From Clavibacter michiganensis (GTDB lineage: Bacteria > Actinomycetota > Actinomycetes > Actinomycetales > Microbacteriaceae): a stretch of 64,000 nt of DNA. Each line of letters starts with the position of its first letter. Within the stretch, counting starts at the first letter, position 1. The position numbers and the translations under genes were made by a program. Positions 25,487 to 33,395 of the stretch are shown piece after piece. The DNA is taken from positions 1,364,001 through 1,428,000 of the forward strand of contig NZ_JAFBBJ010000001.1 in assembly GCF_016907085.1 (NCBI RefSeq), in the 5' to 3' direction. Below the pieces are notes generated by a model. That model saw only the letters and a list, made by a program, of their open reading frames with translations, made no database searches and had not been told where the DNA came from.

Positions 25487-26050
25487 ATGCCCACACGAGC
25501 CCTCGAATTCGACTGGCCCGACCGGGCCGTGGTCGGCACCATCGGCCTCCCGGGCGCGCGCACGTTCTACTTCCAGGTGCGCTCCGGCCCGCAGCTGGTG
25601 ACCATCGCCCTCGAGAAGCAGCAGTCCGCGCTGCTCGCCGAGAAGATCGACGAGATCCTCGACCAGCTCGTCACCGTCGAGGGCAACCCGTTCAGCATCC
25701 CCGAGAGCACGCCCCCGGAGCTCGTCGACAACGACCCGCTCGAGGACGTCGTCGAGCGCTGGCGCACCGGCGCGATGGGCCTCGGCTGGGATCCGACGAC
25801 GGCCCAGGTGGTCATCGAGGCGTACCCGCTCGCGGAGGACGACGACAGCGACGACTTCGACCTGCCGAGCGTCGACGACGACGTGGACGTGGACGACACC
25901 GAGATGCTCGTGGTGCGGATGCCCGTCGGCGCAGCTCGCGCGTTCGCGAAGCGCACCCACGAGGTCGTGGGCGCCGGCCGTCCCATCTGCGCGCTGTGCG
26001 GCTACCCCATCGACCCCGACGGGCACATCCACACCTTCCCCGACGAATGA
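25487..26050 (+). CDS. DUF3090-family protein
   Basis: The 187-residue protein matches DUF3090 throughout: LEFDWPDRAVVGTIGLPGAR, TFYFQVRSG, an acidic central region (EDDDSDDFDLPSVDDDVDVD) and a C-terminal zinc-site-like end, CALCGYPIDPDGHIHTFP. The family is nearly restricted to Actinobacteria and has no established function. It lies 23 bases after the phosphatase gene and overlaps the SCO1664-type gene by 4 bases. Confidence 0.9.
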   Translation: MPTRALEFDWPDRAVVGTIGLPGARTFYFQVRSGPQLVTIALEKQQSALLAEKIDEILDQLVTVEGNPFSIPESTPPELVDNDPLEDVVERWRTGAMGLGWDPTTAQVVIEAYPLAEDDDSDDFDLPSVDDDVDVDDTEMLVVRMPVGAARAFAKRTHEVVGAGRPICALCGYPIDPDGHIHTFPDE

Positions 26051-26817
26051 TGTCGGAGACGGACCCGCTGGACGGCGAGCTGATCGTCACCGGCCGCATC
26101 CGCACCGCGTCGAACGCGACCTTCCTCGGGACGATCGGCGACGTGGCCGTCGTCTACAAGCCCATCCGCGGCGAGAACCCGCTGTGGGACTTCCCCGACG
26201 CGGTGCTCGCGCATCGCGAGGTCGCCGCCTACCTTGTGTCCGAGGCGCTCGGCTGGGGCGTCGTGCCGCGCACGTGGCTCCGCGATGGCCCGGCGGGCGA
26301 GGGCATGGTGCAGCTCTGGCAGGACGAGGATCCCGACCAGGACGCCGTGGACCTGATCCCCGCTGCCGAGATCCCGGAGACCGGCTACCGGACGATCCTC
26401 GGCGGCGAGGACGAGGAGGGCAACACCGTCGCCCTCATCCACGAGGACACCCCGGCGCTGCGCCGCATGGCCGTCTTCGACGTGATCGTGAACAACGCCG
26501 ACCGCAAGGGCTTCCACGTGCTCGCCATGCCGGACGGCCACCGCTTCGGCATCGACCACGGCCTCACCTTCCACGCGCAGCACAAGCTGCGGACTGTGCT
26601 GTGGGGGTGGGTGGGGGATCCGCTGACCGCGGATGAGCTCGAGGGCGTGGATCGGGTGCTCGCGGGGCTGGATGGGGAGCTGGGGCGGGAGCTGGCTGGG
26701 CTGCTGACGGTGGAGGAGGTCGAGGCGTTGGCGGAGCGGTGCGCGCGGTTGCGTGCGGCGGCGAAGTTTCCGGCCCCCCTAGGGGAGGCCTCGGCCGTCC
26801 CCTGGCCACTATTCTGA
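26047..26817 (+). CDS. SCO1664-family protein
   Basis: The 256-residue protein belongs to the conserved actinobacterial SCO1664 family, distantly like phosphatidylinositol 3/4-kinase or HipA-like folds. Segments are GDVAVVYKPIRGENPLWDFP, RTWLRDGPAGEGMVQLWQDE, FDVIVNNADRKGFHVLAMPD and GIDHGLTFH; the DxxxNNADRK and GIDHG elements resemble a kinase catalytic loop and metal site. ATG 26047 overlaps the DUF3090 stop. The C-terminus ending in PWPLF is the family's normal end, so the gene looks intact although the island begins at its stop codon. Confidence 0.88.
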   Translation: MMSETDPLDGELIVTGRIRTASNATFLGTIGDVAVVYKPIRGENPLWDFPDAVLAHREVAAYLVSEALGWGVVPRTWLRDGPAGEGMVQLWQDEDPDQDAVDLIPAAEIPETGYRTILGGEDEEGNTVALIHEDTPALRRMAVFDVIVNNADRKGFHVLAMPDGHRFGIDHGLTFHAQHKLRTVLWGWVGDPLTADELEGVDRVLAGLDGELGRELAGLLTVEEVEALAERCARLRAAAKFPAPLGEASAVPWPLF

Positions 26818-26824
26818 GCTCCGG
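26809..26824. repeat. Left imperfect repeat at island boundary (att-like candidate)
   Basis: CTATTCTGAGCTCCGG, spanning the stop codon of the SCO1664-type gene, matches CTATTCTCAGTACCGG at 32245-32260 at 13 of 16 positions. The pair brackets most of the AT-rich region. No integrase is present, so attachment-site status is speculative. Confidence 0.35.
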
Positions 26825-27214
26825 TCCACGTCGCTCACCACCCCACGAAGCTGGGTCGTAGCTCTACTCGGCAGCAGGACCGCTCCGGCCCTAGGTATCC
26901 GGCACCAAGCGCGCCGGCAAGCTACAAAGCCGAGATCGTACTCACCTCAAGGACTCACGTGGTGACTGCTCGCCCTTCCAGTCGGTAGGCGCCCCATGCT
27001 CATAGTCGCCCCATGTGGCTCAGTTAGACGCGATGTGGCAACACAGGTGGGCTCTGGAAGAGCATACAGAGTACGATCTAGTCAACTTCACGAGGCACAT
27101 GTCTCAAGGCACCCACAGGGAAATCTTCCGGCGATGACCAATGCCAGGCGTTACTTCTACGAGCAATCCTGAGATCTATACTCCGCCACGAGTGACGCCC
27201 GAACAGGACACATA
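26818..27214. other. 397-base non-coding left part of the island
   Basis: No supportable gene lies here. A minus-strand frame at 27078-27299 runs into the methylase gene and has no ribosome-binding site. The stretch holds a short repeated CGCCCCATG (around 26990 and 27008) and the promoter candidate for the methylase gene. It may contain degraded sequence or an unrecognised RNA. Confidence 0.5.
27177..27182 (+). promoter_or_regulatory. Candidate -10 of the island operon
   Basis: TATACT lies 33 bases before the methylase ATG, with TTACTT (27151-27156) as a poorly spaced -35 candidate. The expected start point near 27189 gives a short leader containing AGGA. Confidence 0.4.
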
Positions 27215-28420
27215 ATGACGTTAGCCACTTTCGGATCTTATGCCGCCGCTTACGCGACGCCACTCGCACGCCTGGCAAGTGATTCAAATGACCCGACATG
27301 GGAGACTCCGTACACAGCCCTGCGAGCTACTACAACAAAAGAAGCGATGCGAGCTGCTGGAACTTATTTCACAAGCCCGTCTCTCGCGAAAGCACTGTGG
27401 GATCTGGTGGATTTACCCCTGCCCGATGGCGCCATTGTGGTAGATCCAGCCGTAGGTGCAGGCGACTTATTGCTGCCGTCTGTAACAGATCATAGCGTCC
27501 CCGACCGCGGCCGTCCACATAGCGATAAAACAACGCGACCCTCATACAGAATAAACGACACTAACCCACTCTTTCTGCAAATAGCCGAGCGGCGCCTTGC
27601 GCAGACAGGCGTGATCGAACGTAGCCAAATATCAAGCTCAAACCTCGACTTCTTATCCGGTAACTTCGACCTAACCAACGCCACCCACGTCGTAATGAAC
27701 CCGCCATTTTTTTCAATCAAGGCCGAACGACCATGGGGACGCGGAAGCATAAATGCGGCTGCGCTTTTTGTAGAGCGTGCCCTTCTAGACATGCAAGATG
27801 GAAGCGTCCTTTTAGCCATATTGCCGGATGTTCTGCGATCCGGGACCCGCTACGCGAAGTGGCGCAGTTCGGTCTCCGCACTTGGTTCGATCCGCGCACT
27901 GTCGACCCAAGATCAGTTTGATCACCAAACAGACGTGCACACATTCTTGATTAAAATCGAAGTCGGCGCTGCAGTTCCCAATAGCTCTTGGCAAAGTTCA
28001 TCAGACACCAAACACACGCTACAGGAGTACTGCCGTGTGGCCGTCGGCCCAGTTGTACCCCATCGAGATAGTCACGACGGCGACGAGGTTGCTTATGTAA
28101 CAGCCCGTTCATTGACGGCAGGAATTCCCTTAACTAGATCATTCACCGGCAGACTTGAGTATGGCCCGATGCTTCTCGTCAATCGAACGGCTCGACCGGG
28201 CGATAATCCGCGAGTACGCGTTCGTCGATGGACCGCGACTACCCCAACCGCTGTTGAGAATCACCTTCTGATTGTGAAACCCAACGCGAACTCGGGAGTG
28301 ACTATAGATGATGCATTACGAGTACTTCAATCAGAACATACACGTACCTTTCTCGACGAGCGCATTCGTTGCCGCCACCTGACCGTCACCGCCCTCAAGG
28401 AGATCCCGTGGACAAACTAG
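27215..28420 (+). CDS. N6-adenine DNA methyltransferase-like protein
   Basis: The 401-residue protein has the gamma-class adenine methylase order. GTYFTSPSLAKALWDLV precedes motif I VVDPAVGAGDLLLP (AdoMet site, Asp77-Gly83). The catalytic motif IV is HVVMNPPFFSIKAERPWGRG (NPPF, residues 162-165), followed by FVERALLDMQDGSVLLAILP. The C-terminal third is unassigned and may recognise DNA or a partner, but it is shorter than a usual specificity domain. No restriction endonuclease is adjacent. It overlaps the next gene by 13 bases, so the operon is translationally coupled. AGGA precedes ATG 27215. Its role may be self-marking in a defence system or signalling through DNA modification. Confidence 0.8.
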   Translation: MTLATFGSYAAAYATPLARLASDSNDPTWETPYTALRATTTKEAMRAAGTYFTSPSLAKALWDLVDLPLPDGAIVVDPAVGAGDLLLPSVTDHSVPDRGRPHSDKTTRPSYRINDTNPLFLQIAERRLAQTGVIERSQISSSNLDFLSGNFDLTNATHVVMNPPFFSIKAERPWGRGSINAAALFVERALLDMQDGSVLLAILPDVLRSGTRYAKWRSSVSALGSIRALSTQDQFDHQTDVHTFLIKIEVGAAVPNSSWQSSSDTKHTLQEYCRVAVGPVVPHRDSHDGDEVAYVTARSLTAGIPLTRSFTGRLEYGPMLLVNRTARPGDNPRVRVRRWTATTPTAVENHLLIVKPNANSGVTIDDALRVLQSEHTRTFLDERIRCRHLTVTALKEIPWTN

Positions 28421-30480
28421 TCAACGCAGAGGCCAAGCTCCGCTTTTCGCCACTTATTCTTCAACGACTTGGTGAAGAGCTGAATCCAAGTGTCGATCAA
28501 GGAATTATTGAATTAGTCAAGAATTCATACGACGCCGATGCTAGCCGATGTGATGTTTGGCTCGACGGCGAGGACGGACATGATTCAGTCGTCATAGAAG
28601 ACAACGGCACGGGTATGGACGCGGACGCTATCTTACGAGGATGGCTCGTTCTGGGTGGCTCATCAAAGTCAACCAACACATTGACAAAAGCCGGTCGGCG
28701 ACCGGCCGGCAATAAGGGCCTTGGGCGCCTTGCCGCCTTGCGGCTAGGGCGAATTGCACATATGAGCTCAAGACCAGGAAATGGGTTCGAGTACTCGATA
28801 ACCATCGATTGGGACTTATTTTCTGGCGTTGAAGCCGTCGATGACGTCGCCCTAAGTGTTACTCAATTTCCATCGACAGACCCGCCAGGCACGCGAATTG
28901 AGCTGCGTGGACTTCGTACAACTATTGGACGCGTGGATGCACGCCGTTTAGCGAGGGCGCTCGTCCTTCTCGCCGACCCATTTACAGACGGGTCTGGAGG
29001 ATTTGAACCAGTTCTTCATACAGAGACCTTTTCGGACTTAGCAGGACAAGTAACAAACCGCTACTTCGACCAAGCGGAGTATCACCTCGTTGCGGAAATC
29101 AAAGACGGTCAACCTGAAGCCACAGTCCGAGATTGGCGGGGCGAAATTCTTTGGACCGCCGCGCCGTCCGATTTTAATCGGGCTACAGGAGACGGTGCCT
29201 ACGGTGTTCCCGACACGCGATTTGAACTATGGGTTTATATACTTAACCATCAATCGTTCCAAACTCGGTCAGTTCAGCTGTCGGCAGTGAGGGAGTGGCT
29301 TGGAACGTTTGGTGGCGTTCATGTTTACGTGAACGGCCTAAGGGTTGCGCCCTATGGCAACCCGTCGAACGACTGGCTGGATATGAATCTAGCCCGCGCG
29401 CGAAGCCCAGAAGAGCGACCATCAACTAATACATCTATTGGCCGAGTGCTTGTGGAAGACCCAAATGACTCGCTCCGCCAAAAGACTGATCGGTCTGGCT
29501 TCCTAGACACGTGGGAGTTTTCAGAGCTTCAACGTTTTGCAAAAGATGCAATGAACTGGATGGCTCAGAAACGGGTCGAGACCGCAGAGCGTAAGCGGCG
29601 CGCAGCAAGAGCAGAAACTCAGAAAGATGCGTCGAAGTCAAGTGAAACCGTAAACGAACTCATTCGGCAAGTAACAGATGATGCTTCCAAAGCAGCACTT
29701 CAGCTTTCTTTTAAAACTTACGAACGGGAAAGAGACCGTGAGGCCGAAGTTCTTAGACGCGAAGTCCAATTGTATCGCACTTTGAGCACGGCCGGCATCA
29801 CGGCCGCGACCTTTGCTCATGAGGCGCAAGGAAATCCCCTGAAAGCCATCGGCACCTCTTTAACTGGCATAGCCTCGCGACTCGTCCGGAATCCATCAGT
29901 CAATTTCGAAGCGGACTACGCTCAAGCCATCAGTCGAATAAGGGCCGCTACGCTGGCACTCAGCGTGCTATCGACAGCCACGCTCGAACTTATCGATGCC
30001 GATAAGCGGCGTATGGGCAAAGTTGTACTCAACCAAACCGTGAGAGACATCACTCAAACATTTAAGCCATTTTTGGATGGTAGAAATGTGCAGCTAACAG
30101 TCGTCATACCTGAAGGCAGTGAACCTTTCTTGCAGGGGTCAGCCGCTTCAGTAGAATCCATAATTACCAACCTTATCAATAATTCATTAGCGGCGTTCGA
30201 AACCTCAACGAATAGCGATCGCATGATTCACATGACAGTTTCAACGACAGATGAGTTGTGGTGCCTCGAGGTGGCAGACAGCGGCCCTGGCATCGTTGGT
30301 ATCGGCTTGGAGGAGATATGGCTACCCGGCCATACCCTCAAACCACACGGGACAGGTCTAGGGTTGACGATCGTCAAAGATACGGTTGCGGATTTGGGCG
30401 GTAACGTCAAAGCTATAGCAAATGGCTCCTTGGGAGGAGCCGTCTTTACTCTACAGTTGCCTACTCTCGGTGCCGACTAA
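28408..30480 (+). CDS. Dual-GHKL ATPase: N-terminal MORC/Hsp90-like module fused to histidine-kinase-like core
   Basis: The 690-residue protein contains two GHKL ATP-binding modules. The first (residues 1-200) is of the MORC/Hsp90/MutL type: N-box QGIIELVKNSYDADASR, EDNGTGM (Asp65, Gly67, Gly69), LGGSSKS and GNKGLGRLAALRLG. A middle domain follows, then a charged coiled coil (about 395-460). The second is a kinase core: an H-box-like FAHEAQGNPLKAIG with His471, N-box NLINNSLAAFE, G1 VADSGPGI (Asp624) and G2 GTGLGLTIVKD (Gly648). The H-box has one residue more between His-Glu and Asn-Pro-Leu than usual. There is no membrane segment, so sensing is cytoplasmic. The start is GTG 28408 with AAGGAG 5 bases upstream, inside the methylase 3' end. 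The receiver protein encoded next is the expected phosphotransfer partner. Confidence 0.82.
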   Translation: MDKLVNAEAKLRFSPLILQRLGEELNPSVDQGIIELVKNSYDADASRCDVWLDGEDGHDSVVIEDNGTGMDADAILRGWLVLGGSSKSTNTLTKAGRRPAGNKGLGRLAALRLGRIAHMSSRPGNGFEYSITIDWDLFSGVEAVDDVALSVTQFPSTDPPGTRIELRGLRTTIGRVDARRLARALVLLADPFTDGSGGFEPVLHTETFSDLAGQVTNRYFDQAEYHLVAEIKDGQPEATVRDWRGEILWTAAPSDFNRATGDGAYGVPDTRFELWVYILNHQSFQTRSVQLSAVREWLGTFGGVHVYVNGLRVAPYGNPSNDWLDMNLARARSPEERPSTNTSIGRVLVEDPNDSLRQKTDRSGFLDTWEFSELQRFAKDAMNWMAQKRVETAERKRRAARAETQKDASKSSETVNELIRQVTDDASKAALQLSFKTYERERDREAEVLRREVQLYRTLSTAGITAATFAHEAQGNPLKAIGTSLTGIASRLVRNPSVNFEADYAQAISRIRAATLALSVLSTATLELIDADKRRMGKVVLNQTVRDITQTFKPFLDGRNVQLTVVIPEGSEPFLQGSAASVESIITNLINNSLAAFETSTNSDRMIHMTVSTTDELWCLEVADSGPGIVGIGLEEIWLPGHTLKPHGTGLGLTIVKDTVADLGGNVKAIANGSLGGAVFTLQLPTLGAD

Positions 30481-30489
30481 AAGGACATA

Positions 30490-31140
30490 ATGAATCACGA
30501 TTCTGAACGAATTGCCATCATTGATGATGATCAGGATGTGCGCGAGGGATACGCATACGCGATTGAGGGTGACGAATTCACCCCTGTCGATCAGCCAGGG
30601 CCGCTTGGCTCCCTCGAGTCGTACTTAGCGCGACCAAAGAACGCAACATCGGCAGTCAGTGACCATCGCTTGACGCCTGCTGGCTACGCGCAGTTCGACG
30701 GAGCAAAGCTCGTTGCGCAATGGTACAGGACTCAATTTCCCGCCGTACTATGCACGACGTATAGCATCTCGAGCGCTGACCAATTTCGGTCACTGAGACG
30801 TTGGATACCCGTCGTCATGTCGCCCAACGAGCTTTCTTCAGATGCGGTTAGGGAAGGCCTGGCTGTCGTTCGTGCAGAATTCGAAGGTAGCTTTCAGGCC
30901 GTACGACGCCCTCGACGTGCACTCGTTAGATTCGTCGAGTATGTCCCTGAAAACCAATCGGTGTATGTGAAGATGCCCGCGTGGAGTTCAGAAGCAGTTG
31001 CACTTCGTGTCGCCGATTTACCTCCAGAATTAGCCTTGAAAGTAACCACACAACCGGATTACCGAGCCTACGCGCAGGTAAACCTTGGGACCGAATCGGC
31101 GGATGCCCTGTATGTCGCCGATTGGGAATACGATTTATGA
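30490..31140 (+). CDS. Response-regulator receiver protein lacking the conserved lysine
   Basis: The 216-residue protein starts with a receiver domain (about residues 5-125). The acidic pocket is in RIAIIDDDQDVREGY, the phosphoacceptor is Asp58 in AVSDHRLTP, and the conserved Thr is Thr89/90 in LCTTYS. The usual Lys-Pro at the fifth strand reads Met-Ser-Pro (VVMSPNEL), so the signalling lysine is replaced by Ser111. About 90 C-terminal residues (RALVRFVEYVPENQSVYVKM onward) form an unrecognised, probably beta-rich domain that is not a standard DNA-binding output. It lies 9 bases after the ATPase gene and overlaps the hydrolase gene by 4 bases. Confidence 0.75.
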   Translation: MNHDSERIAIIDDDQDVREGYAYAIEGDEFTPVDQPGPLGSLESYLARPKNATSAVSDHRLTPAGYAQFDGAKLVAQWYRTQFPAVLCTTYSISSADQFRSLRRWIPVVMSPNELSSDAVREGLAVVRAEFEGSFQAVRRPRRALVRFVEYVPENQSVYVKMPAWSSEAVALRVADLPPELALKVTTQPDYRAYAQVNLGTESADALYVADWEYDL

Positions 31141-32186
31141 GCGACGTAGTCCTTACTCAACAACTGAATACGTCAGACGTCAGCGTAGCAATTTTGGACG
31201 TTGGGCATGGCAGCTGTGTTGTTGTGCAGACTGAAGTCGCCACGATTCTCATCGACACTGGGGCAAACTCCTCCGTCTTAGAGTATCTCGAAGCCCGCGA
31301 TATCCAACTGATAGATCTTGTGATTATCAGTCACGCTGACCAAGACCACGTCGGCGGCCTTTCTGCGATGCTTTCGTCTGGCTTTCCGGTTCGCCGTGTT
31401 GTTTGGAATACAGATGGACTTAAGCGCACTAAGCTATTTCAAGATCTCAGTTATCAGCTTGATGACCTGGCGGACTCCGGAAGCATCATTGCGCACGAGG
31501 AGGTGGGTAAAGGCTTATTGGTCACCAATATAGGGCCTCGCGTGAAGCTTGAGATTCTAGCTCCGCGACTACGGCTTCGGCGGTTAGGGGTAGGCAATAG
31601 GGACCGCACAGGGGCAGCCATTAAGACAAACTCGGTGAGCGCGGTCGTGCGCGTATCGGTGGACGACATGCCCTTAATGCTTGTTCCTGGTGACCTGGAC
31701 GCAGTGGGACTGCGTCACATGAAGAATCCAGAGCTTCCCGACATGCGGGCTAAGTATCTTGTCTTACCTCACCATGGTGGAACTATGGCTTCTTCCGCCG
31801 CCGGGACAGCGACGGCATTAGCAGAACTCGTCGCGGCCGTACAACCCGAACTTGTCCTAATCTCAAATGGCAGGTCGACTGGCATGGACAACCCTAGACC
31901 CGAGGTGCTACAGGCTGCGTTGAGCGCGATGCCCAATGTAGCCGTTGCGTGTACACAGTTATCTCGCTCATGTTCACCCAGTCCAGTTGGTCGAACGGGG
32001 TCCTCCGACGGCTATGCAGCCGGTTGGCAAGAAGGGCATTCCTGCCTAGGTTCAGCTATTATTAGCGGGCCCGTGGGCGGCCCGCTGTTTCTTGACCGCA
32101 CCGCCCATGAGGCTTTCCTCGACGAGTTCGTTCCTGGAGCACGCTGCCGTCTAGCGTCACGGGAGCTAGAGAGGCCAGGAGGTTAG
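31137..32186 (+). CDS. ComEC/Rec2-like metallo-beta-lactamase-fold hydrolase
   Basis: The 349-residue soluble protein has the MBL fold of ComEC/Rec2-type nucleases. Features are AILDVGHGSCVVVQT, the metal motif HADQDH in IISHADQDHVGGL (His66, Asp68, Asp70, His71), the bridging aspartate in LVPGDLDAVGL and the later histidines in LVLPHHGGT. It lacks ComEC membrane domains, so it is a cytoplasmic hydrolase, probably a nuclease or phosphodiesterase effector. Its ATG overlaps the receiver gene stop (ATGA). It ends about 135 bases before ychF. A toxic effector held in check by the upstream phosphorelay is a reasonable but untested idea. Confidence 0.78.
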   Translation: MSDVVLTQQLNTSDVSVAILDVGHGSCVVVQTEVATILIDTGANSSVLEYLEARDIQLIDLVIISHADQDHVGGLSAMLSSGFPVRRVVWNTDGLKRTKLFQDLSYQLDDLADSGSIIAHEEVGKGLLVTNIGPRVKLEILAPRLRLRRLGVGNRDRTGAAIKTNSVSAVVRVSVDDMPLMLVPGDLDAVGLRHMKNPELPDMRAKYLVLPHHGGTMASSAAGTATALAELVAAVQPELVLISNGRSTGMDNPRPEVLQAALSAMPNVAVACTQLSRSCSPSPVGRTGSSDGYAAGWQEGHSCLGSAIISGPVGGPLFLDRTAHEAFLDEFVPGARCRLASRELERPGG

Positions 32187-32244
32187 GGGAACATCAACAA
32201 AATCGCCTTTGGGAAAGCTGCGGTCGCATGCTCGCGTTCATGAC

Positions 32245-32260
32245 CTATTCTCAGTACCGG
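32245..32260. repeat. Right imperfect repeat at island boundary (att-like candidate)
   Basis: CTATTCTCAGTACCGG is the partner of 26809-26824 (13 of 16 identical). It lies between the last island gene and the ychF stop in still AT-rich sequence. Confidence 0.35.
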
Positions 32261-32321
32261 CACATGCTTACGGAGCGTGCTTAAGCTCACGTCAGCTCGC
32301 TAAGAGTCCATATGAAGTACG

Positions 32322-33395
32322 TCAGTTGTTGAACCGGAACTCCACAACGTCGCCGTCCTGCATCACGTACTCCTTGCCCTCGATGCGGGCCTTGCCCTTG
32401 GAGCGCGCCTCGGCGATGGAGCCGGTCTCGACCAGGTCGTCGTAGGAGATGACCTCGGCCTTGATGAAGCCCTTCTCGAAGTCGGTGTGGATCACGCCGG
32501 CCGCCTGGGGGGCCTTCCATCCCTTGCCGATGGTCCAGGCACGCGTCTCCTTGGGGCCCGCCGTCAGGTAGGTCTGGAGGCCGAGGGTCTCGAAGCCGAT
32601 GCGGGCGAGCTGGTCGAGGCCGGACTCCTCCTGGCCGGTGCTCGCGAGCATCTCGGCGGCGTCCTCAGGGTCGAGCTCGATGAGCTCCGACTCGATCTTC
32701 GCGTCGAGGAACACGGCCTGCGCAGGCGCCACGAGGGCGGCCAGCTCGTCGAGACGAGCCTTGTCGCCGAGCACCTGCTCGTCGACGTTGAACACGTAGA
32801 TGAAGGGCTTCGCGGTCAGCAGCCCGAGCTCACGCACCGGCTCCAGATCGATGGACGAGGCCGACAGCGGCTTGCCCGAGTCGAGCCACTCGCGCGCGGC
32901 CTTCGCGGTCTCGAGCACGATCGGCTCGATGCGCTTCGTCTTCAGCTCCTTCTCGTAGCGCGGCTCGGCGCGCTCGAGGGTCTGCAGGTCGGCGAGGATC
33001 AGCTCGGTGTTGATGGTCTCCATGTCGCTCGCGGCGTCGACGCGGCCGTCGACGTGCACGACGTCCTCGTCCTCGAAGCCGCGGACGACCTGCGCGATGG
33101 CGTCGGCCTCGCGGATGTTCGCGAGGAACTGGTTGCCGAGGCCCTCTCCCTCGCTCGCGCCGCGGACGATGCCGGCGATGTCGACGAAGGAGACGGGCGC
33201 GGGGAGGATCTTCTCGCTGCCGAAGAGGCCGGCGAGCACCTCGAGGCGCGGGTCCGGGAGGTTCACCACGCCCACGTTCGGCTCGATCGTCGCGAACGGG
33301 TAGTTCGCGGCGAGCACCTGGTTCTTGGTCAGGGCGTTGAAGAGCGTCGACTTGCCGACGTTGGGGAGACCGACGATCGCGATAGTGAGTGCCAC
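32322..33395 (-). CDS. ychF: Redox-regulated ATPase YchF (Obg-like)
   Basis: The 357-residue protein is a full-length YchF/OLA1 P-loop protein that binds ribosomes and prefers ATP to GTP. The Walker A is [15 protein letters not shown], switch regions include YPFATIEPN and [19 protein letters not shown], the NKxD-equivalent is FNVDEQ, and the C-terminal TGS-like domain includes [20 protein letters not shown]. The start is GTG 33395 ([16 protein letters not shown]). The last residues read EFRFNN where the family usually ends FNV, and the stop sits at the island edge, so the final codon may have changed when the island arrived. Confidence 0.95.

Follow-up and report, generated by a model that had tools for sequence, protein, structure and literature searches.

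Within a 64-kb window of the Clavibacter michiganensis genome (the whole stretch of DNA analysed, 64,000 nucleotides in length) lies an operon of four genes, here called M, K, R and H, which encode a DNA methylase, a GHKL-headed kinase, a receiver-like protein and a metallo-β-lactamase (MBL) hydrolase resembling ComEC. All four genes are on the plus strand, where they fill a 5.5-kb AT-rich island. The operon is an apparently unnamed four-gene system, phylogenetically wide but sparse, and most probably anti-phage. In window coordinates, the features of the locus are as follows:

26818..32320, no strand assigned: island with the four-gene operon, horizontally acquired, as judged from where homology ends within the genus, a near-empty site in one relative (G010) and GC content
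26818..27214, plus strand: leader 5′ of M, presumed to hold the promoter
27215..28420, plus strand: M, gamma-class N6-adenine DNA methylase, 401 amino acids (Pfam, family profile, motifs)
28408..30480, plus strand: K, GHKL-DHp-HATPase_c kinase, 690 amino acids (Pfam, ZraS alignment, family profile)
30490..31140, plus strand: R, receiver-like protein, 216 amino acids (family profile, conservation)
31137..32186, plus strand: H, ComEC-type MBL hydrolase, 349 amino acids (Pfam, NCBIfam, PADLOC, family profile, conservation)

The genes are closely packed, with a 13-base overlap between M and K (28408-28420), a gap of 9 bases between K and R, and a 4-base overlap between R and H. The start codon of K is a GTG at 28408, with AAGGAG five bases before it. 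The GC content per kilobase is 0.52-0.54 across 27001-32000 versus 0.64-0.79 in the remaining kilobases of the window, and that of 26818-32320 as a whole is 0.538, versus 0.730 for the remainder. Two convergent genes flank the island, the left one ending at 26817 and the right one, on the minus strand and named by eye as a YchF-like GTPase gene, ending at 32322. An earlier description made without database searches (the sequence-only reading) had reported this gene order, the overlaps and gap and the AT-rich island, all of which hold, the overlaps and gap to the base. Promoter-like sites between 26700 and 32500 are no more frequent than in shuffled sequences, with none on the plus strand, and terminators likewise score no better than shuffles. 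There are no Rfam matches in 26000-33000 and no tRNA genes in the window. The repeats at the island edges are just short or imperfect pairs, and the 3′ end of ychF has no duplicate inside the island, barring 20 bases common to query and island by construction.

K carries a MORC-like GHKL module at its N-terminus (28498-28824; Pfam HATPase_c_3, 6.8e-18) and a HATPase_c domain at its C-terminus (30145-30465; Pfam HATPase_c, 6.5e-19), and both families are matched by all 44 members of the K family. The histidine of the DHp part is H471 (codon 29818-29820), which lines up with the HE of ZraS. With the family profile, the N-terminal part finds MORC3, MORC2 and MutL, and the C-terminal part finds kinases such as ZraS and FixL. 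The best 120 K homologues listed are 673-712 amino acids long and share 49-70% identity with K across 97% or more of its length. In the alignment of the 44 members (A6, compiled, like A5, without the loci from annotated records), every row keeps H471, E472 and the kinase boxes, and the GHKL boxes, which in paraMORC proteins precede an S5 domain, are present.

R resembles a receiver more distantly. Its family profile matches the PhoB receiver at 7e-4, and Pfam Response_reg is found, at E values up to 1, in 6 of 22 family members (best 6e-4) and not in R itself (P0003). Residues D12, D13 and D58 (codon 30661-30663) are invariant in all 23 rows of alignment A4, which omits L027 since the start of its R is uncertain, and position 89 is T (18 rows) or S (5). 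No conserved lysine is present, there being no alignment column with lysine in at least 10 of the 23 rows. This would make R an atypical receiver, one whose phosphorylation may serve to hold a complex together instead of producing the usual allostery. The C-terminal region (30850-31140) contains invariant R139, W165 and N198; Pfam gives no significant match to it, and contact with the nuclease may be made here.

In H, the motifs HADQDH (31332-31349), D186/D188 and HHGG (residues 212-215) mark an MBL fold. H matches Pfam Lactamase_B above the cut-off (1.2e-10) and NCBIfam ComEC_Rec2 below it (8.7e-19), with partial PADLOC matches to RTasMBL of DRT (1.6e-13) and LmuA of Lamassu (5.7e-11), and its family profile matches ComEC structures at 1.3e-18. 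The metal ligand set of the ComEC type is complete, with H66, D68, D70, H71, D186, H212 and H213 in 16/16 rows and D188 in 15/16. The isolated MBL domain of ComEC is reported to be a Mn-dependent DNase (PMC8579336). Outside the ComEC-aligned part, a C-terminal extension (31950-32147) has four invariant cysteines, at positions 272, 279, 303 and 337 (16/16), and is a possible metal site, gate or docking element. No receiver match was found in H with Pfam or NCBIfam. A search with H gave 13 matches in 11 of 11 genomes. Each genome has its operon copy; of the two further matches, one is an additional copy in G185 and the other a weak hit (1.2e-17) in a 900-residue frame of G820. G185, a genome of the window's order, has two kinase copies (L110 and L111) of different sub-lineages, and its second MBL gene lies on contig C103. 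On a Pseudanabaena plasmid (L108:10848-12801), an IS982 transposase gene splits H, with the kinase and receiver frames still open.

M contains motif I, DPAxGxGD, at residues 77-84 and NPPF at residues 162-165 (27698-27709). It narrowly misses the Pfam N6_Mtase cut-off (19.5 bits, E 6.7e-4; cut-off 20.4), and its family profile matches BseCI and type I M structures. Both DP and NPP occur in all 27 rows of alignment A9 (two of which, P0035 and L109 of Demequina aestuarii, are one identical protein), the next residue being F (20) or Y (7). The C-terminal part, with its own conserved blocks, is a probable target-recognition region. M matches mad2 alone among the PADLOC mad models (1.2e-6), and assignment to MADS was rejected on that ground. 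At the protein level, the sequence-only reading is borne out on these points: its proposed catalytic residues exist and are conserved in every aligned row (H471 in 44, D58 in 23, H66/D68 in 16 and NPP in 27), its description of R as lysine-less is accurate, and the ligand set of H agrees with the candidate nuclease it had proposed.

The four genes belong together beyond this genome. We examined 29 K loci (21 + 8), comprising 17 MBL-type, 5 HNH-type and 5 C5-type loci, with L110 and L031, at contig ends, uncounted. The 21 (L021-L041) were drawn from 80, the other 59 (L042-L100) mostly matching the common histidine-kinase part. In the K clade, the K-R-H trio is present in all 17 non-truncated loci (R 17/17, H 17/17; window included), which span six phyla, and the three genes mostly overlap or lie nearly adjacent. 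M lies near 12 of the 17. In 10 of these 12 the genes run M-K-R-H along a single strand, the exceptions being L027, with M downstream, and L028 (Streptomyces galbus), with M divergent. Thus the families do co-occur across phyla, as the sequence-only reading had anticipated. Divergence is also correlated among the 12 four-gene loci, most strongly for K-R (r=0.84), followed by R-H (0.67), M-H (0.59), K-H (0.58), M-R (0.50) and M-K (0.40), with permutation p values of 0.0001-0.0028; correlation of this kind would equally follow from shared ancestry of the hosts or the cassette. One could suppose that independent genes were merely joined by assembly of the island and have no joint function, a notion to which the variable presence and position of M lends something. 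We consider it highly improbable and strongly disfavoured: the trio occurs in 17/17 loci over six phyla, more often than by chance, with mostly overlapping or near-adjacent genes and correlated divergence, and chance assembly was rejected on the 17/17 count.

Related kinases keep other company. In a tree of K, built by a quick method with a midpoint root and without L031, the MBL loci (together with truncated L110), the HNH loci and the C5 loci each fall on one side of a branch, with SH-aLRT (Shimodaira-Hasegawa-like approximate likelihood ratio test) support of 99, 99 and 100. Pfam was run for sister-clade proteins of L039, L040, L037 and L112, and the other HNH and C5 labels were assigned by eye. 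The HNH group (L032, L033, L034, L039, L112) comes from Bacteroidota, TM6, Paceibacterota and one genome of the window's phylum. By eye, K is accompanied by a receiver-like and an HNH-like gene in 5/5 of its loci, and Pfam confirms HNH in L039. A methylase is found there by Pfam in L039 and by eye in L033 and L034, and the protein upstream in L112 matches the M profile (2.3e-22). In the C5 group (L035, L036, L037, L040, L041), the receiver-like protein measures about 400-440 amino acids and carries DD and DYD motifs. Pfam identifies a C5 methylase in L037 and L040, and inspection by eye adds one in L041 and a fragment in L035. In L037 the methylase is fused to a confirmed Vsr, and L036 has a Vsr by eye. 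The R profile matches that of the HNH-clade receivers with 94.8% probability and that of the C5 clade weakly (33%, E 4.5e-4). In most C5-group loci a gene of unassigned product follows the receiver, which may be that group's real effector. From sequence, then, one kinase architecture appears to be paired with different nuclease-type genes in sister clades.

This company lends itself to an account of the operon as a restriction-modification (R-M) system proper, in which M and H would be the modification and restriction halves, K and R an assembly or ATP-driven DNA-looping unit, and the His-Asp chemistry maybe a relic. The sister clades adjoin methylases and nucleases in both the HNH and the C5 group (Vsr confirmed in L037), the N-terminus of K partly matches the BbrUII/HgiDII restriction-enzyme models below the cut-off, R lacks the lysine, and M co-varies with K, R and H. 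Set against these points, invariant H471, E472 and kinase boxes (44/44) and invariant D12, D13 and D58 (23/23) would be unlikely in a relic, and M is missing near 5 of the 17 loci. Measured against a type II R-M system, the operon has intact methylase motifs in the aligned M rows, along with the same five loci where M is missing. On this evidence we hold the account to be unlikely.

K is sparsely distributed. At E<=1e-60 it occurs in 3 of the 396 order-level genomes and 2 of the 396 phylum-level ones (both counts include the own genome), as well as in 3 of 72,556 plasmid records. Among 50,697 phage records there is no full-length K, just one partial match of 22.5% and none covering 80%, and a phage-borne origin was rejected for this reason. 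A copy of the operon in Burkholderia lies near an integrase and a HerA protein annotated as anti-phage-associated. Closer to home, none of 17 same-genus relatives has a full-length K. The left flanking gene is found in all 18 genus genomes, own included. The genus is that of Clavibacter californiensis, a plasmid of which is 100% identical to a 3.5-kb piece of the relative G004. Homology to the 17 Clavibacter genomes stops at 26815-26818 in 12 and within 26762-26847 in the others, and resumes at 32319-32331, the 3′ end of the YchF-like gene, in 16 of 17 (in G009 it is not reached within 15 kb). In G010 the site is empty, with 47-48 bp between the flanks, and the other 16 of the 17 sites (loci L132-L148 in all) hold different sequence.

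What these other inserts contain bears on the function of the site. Twenty proteins, mostly larger open reading frames (ORFs) picked by eye, were scanned with PADLOC in 14 inserts. The scan left aside the short inserts of G004 and G005, the empty site of G010 and other ORFs, such as one of 312 amino acids in G006 and one of 305 in G011. Matches below 1e-20 occur in 10/14 inserts, and 15/20 proteins have strong matches. They include type III R-M in G015, type I R-M in G003 and, with PrrC, in G006, PDC-M32A in G001, PRTase_III-A in G012, an AriA-like ATPase in G016, PDC-S11 in G014, and Orf5/HEC-06-like proteins in G017, G009 and G013. The match in G002 is weak (4e-9). The site beside the YchF-like gene thus looks like a variable defence hotspot across Clavibacter, which supports the sequence-only reading. 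Stretches of 31 to 211 bp from the ychF 3′ end recur in the inserts L139, L135 and L144 (of G008, G005 and G009), and in G009 this copy directly precedes what looks by eye like a serine recombinase gene, which suggests the ychF 3′ end as an attachment site.

A housekeeping role fits this pattern less well. It could be proposed that the operon is a phosphorelay regulator of stress or DNA damage, in which K senses nucleotides or damage and R and H process DNA or nucleotides for repair. The C-terminal region of R is uncharacterised, MBL folds can act on nucleotides, and some copies, such as the Anabaena locus, have no obvious defence genes among the nearby ORFs by eye. Nevertheless, the sparse distribution of K, the plasmid copies and the hotspot better fit a mobile accessory system, and we regard the regulator as quite improbable.

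On balance, the sequence evidence inclines us towards a mobile anti-phage or anti-plasmid system in which a kinase relay would control a DNase. A possible mechanism has five steps. First, the MORC-like GHKL module of K, by analogy with its family, would close around or otherwise sense foreign or improperly marked DNA. The C-terminal kinase core, whose residues are present, would then autophosphorylate H471, and the phosphate would pass to D58 of R, a residue invariant in the aligned rows of a protein tightly co-inherited with K. R would next activate the ComEC-type DNase H, directly or by lifting inhibition, and infection would be halted by restriction or cell killing; because the operon has no protease gene, R is proposed in the releasing role. 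Finally, methylation of host DNA by M would keep the sensor or nuclease from acting on self, as a common but optional layer (12/17 loci).

Linkage, co-inheritance, intact catalytic residues and location are observed for the operon and support this reading, and from them we infer every biochemical step. Several points weigh against it. MBL folds hydrolyse many substrates other than DNA, and with no conserved lysine in R, switching driven by phosphorylation is uncertain. M is missing near five loci, the cyanobacterial L024 (Anabaena azotica), L025, L026 and L108 (in which 18 kb of the Pseudanabaena plasmid was examined) and L111. When the whole genomes of L024, L025, L026 and L111 were searched for M, three yielded nothing and the fourth a single weak match (4.5e-11), and truncated L110 has no M on its intact upstream side. 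Self-marking therefore cannot be essential to every member, and the role that the sequence-only reading had assigned to the methylase survives as a common association with the trio and falls as an obligatory one. As for the hotspot, the scanned proteins of the G008, G011 and G007 inserts (3/14) have no PADLOC matches, and may belong to undescribed systems. Strong matches were also obtained for 2 of 10 ordinary window genes used as control (SspA/DndA and RTasRmuC models). The one-sided Fisher test gives p 0.006 for proteins (15/20 vs 2/10) and p 0.018 for inserts (10/14 vs 2/10), a comparison that is moderate and supportive, its units not being independent and its proteins chosen by eye.

A more specific form of the proposed defence system, which we advance tentatively and consider doubtful as it stands, is an R-M system gated by a His-Asp phosphorelay. 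Here a MORC-clamp kinase would read unmethylated or foreign DNA and the lysine-less receiver would release a ComEC-type DNase, with the kinase-receiver module serving as a plug-in controller, joined in separate lineages to one nuclease or another (MBL, HNH, perhaps Vsr or a different effector). If true, it would join the DNA-reading GHKL/MORC ATPases, whose signal in prokaryotes is poorly understood, with two-component signalling. Should a histidine kinase be driven by a MORC-type clamp, activation could be read as phosphorylation, and what prokaryotic MORC-like ATPases sense would become testable. Given the six phyla and the sister systems with other nucleases, a single study could establish a whole family of DNA-defence systems under phospho-control.

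How does the operon compare with systems already described? The sequence-only reading knew of no named system with this gene set, and this holds: no description was found in the open-licence literature, most subscription papers lying outside that scope, and no database model takes in the whole set, the PADLOC matches being partial and none of the listed NCBIfam matches reaching its cut-off (for K, 25 of 75 matches were listed). Detocs is a three-gene family with a kinase and two receiver proteins, one of them fused to an effector, of which the ATP-destroying PNP is the best described. It is a defensive two-component system that acts with an effector against phage (PMC11249213). The operon differs in its GHKL-headed kinase, single receiver gene, MBL effector without a receiver match, and DNA methylase; assignment to Detocs was rejected on the one receiver gene and on the absence of a receiver match in H with Pfam or NCBIfam.

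The ComEC-like MBL protein of Hachiman and AVAST is a DNase made as an inactive proenzyme and freed by a trypsin-like protease, and relatives of this effector occur in Lamassu, DRT and canu, the protease of canu being caspase-like (PMC12799240). Like these effectors, H resembles the ComEC nuclease; unlike Hachiman and AVAST, the operon has no protease gene, and a receiver gene adjoins H. VcSduA, a Shedu protein with an N-terminal GHKL (formerly paraMORC3), protects against phage (PMC12137116), so GHKL modules do serve defence. VcSduA, however, is a single protein with a fused PD-(D/E)xK nuclease, for which the available text describes no kinase core, receiver or methylase, whereas the operon has a separate kinase, receiver, MBL protein and methylase. 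The paraMORC ATPases have an N-terminal GHKL and are encoded in R-M-like operons with methylases and nucleases, for which an assembly or ATP-driven DNA-looping role was proposed (Iyer et al., 2008; PMC2292703). Of these, paraMORC1 has a C-terminal extension and possibly co-occurs with HNH endonucleases (PMC2292703), and is possibly of the same broad kind as the K systems. In the available text of that paper, 'receiver' and 'lactamase' have no mentions and 'histidine kinase' appears just in the spelling-out of GHKL, whereas the operon has a receiver and an MBL protein.

A near relative is already in print in the HEF_HK/Response_reg_2 pair, a GHKL-DHp-GHKL kinase with a receiver-like partner near R-M genes (Bellieny-Rabelo et al., 2021; PMC8011034). 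Common to both are a kinase of HATPase_c_3, DHp and HATPase_c without transmembrane parts, a receiver-like protein, a methylase and an R-M context. K also has the HEF_HK arrangement of HATPase_c_3, a phosphoacceptor histidine followed by an acidic residue (H471-E472), and HATPase_c, in 44/44 members. The Pfam models do not extend to the operon. PF19191 (HEF_HK) has no match in K (P0002, E up to 1) and is not among the 25 of 28 families listed for the 44 members; a genome search found it in 0 of 6 genomes, but no control genome matched either, so this is not proof of absence. PF19192 (Response_reg_2) has no match in R (P0003) or the 22 family members at E up to 1, nor in the own genome, where again no control genome matched. 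The HEF_HK set, moreover, mostly has a C5 methylase with Vsr, HNH or type II nucleases, whereas the operon has an N6 methylase and an MBL protein, and the receivers partnering HEF_HK are reported to keep the beta5 lysine, which is not conserved in R. The main text of PMC8011034 mentions neither lactamase, ComEC nor phage; the operon has a ComEC-type MBL protein. Filing under HEF_HK/Response_reg_2 itself was rejected, as neither Pfam model matched and the beta5 lysine is not conserved. We place the operon among the two-component-like R-M systems of the paraMORC/HEF_HK type, as a variant whose proposed effector is an MBL protein like ComEC.

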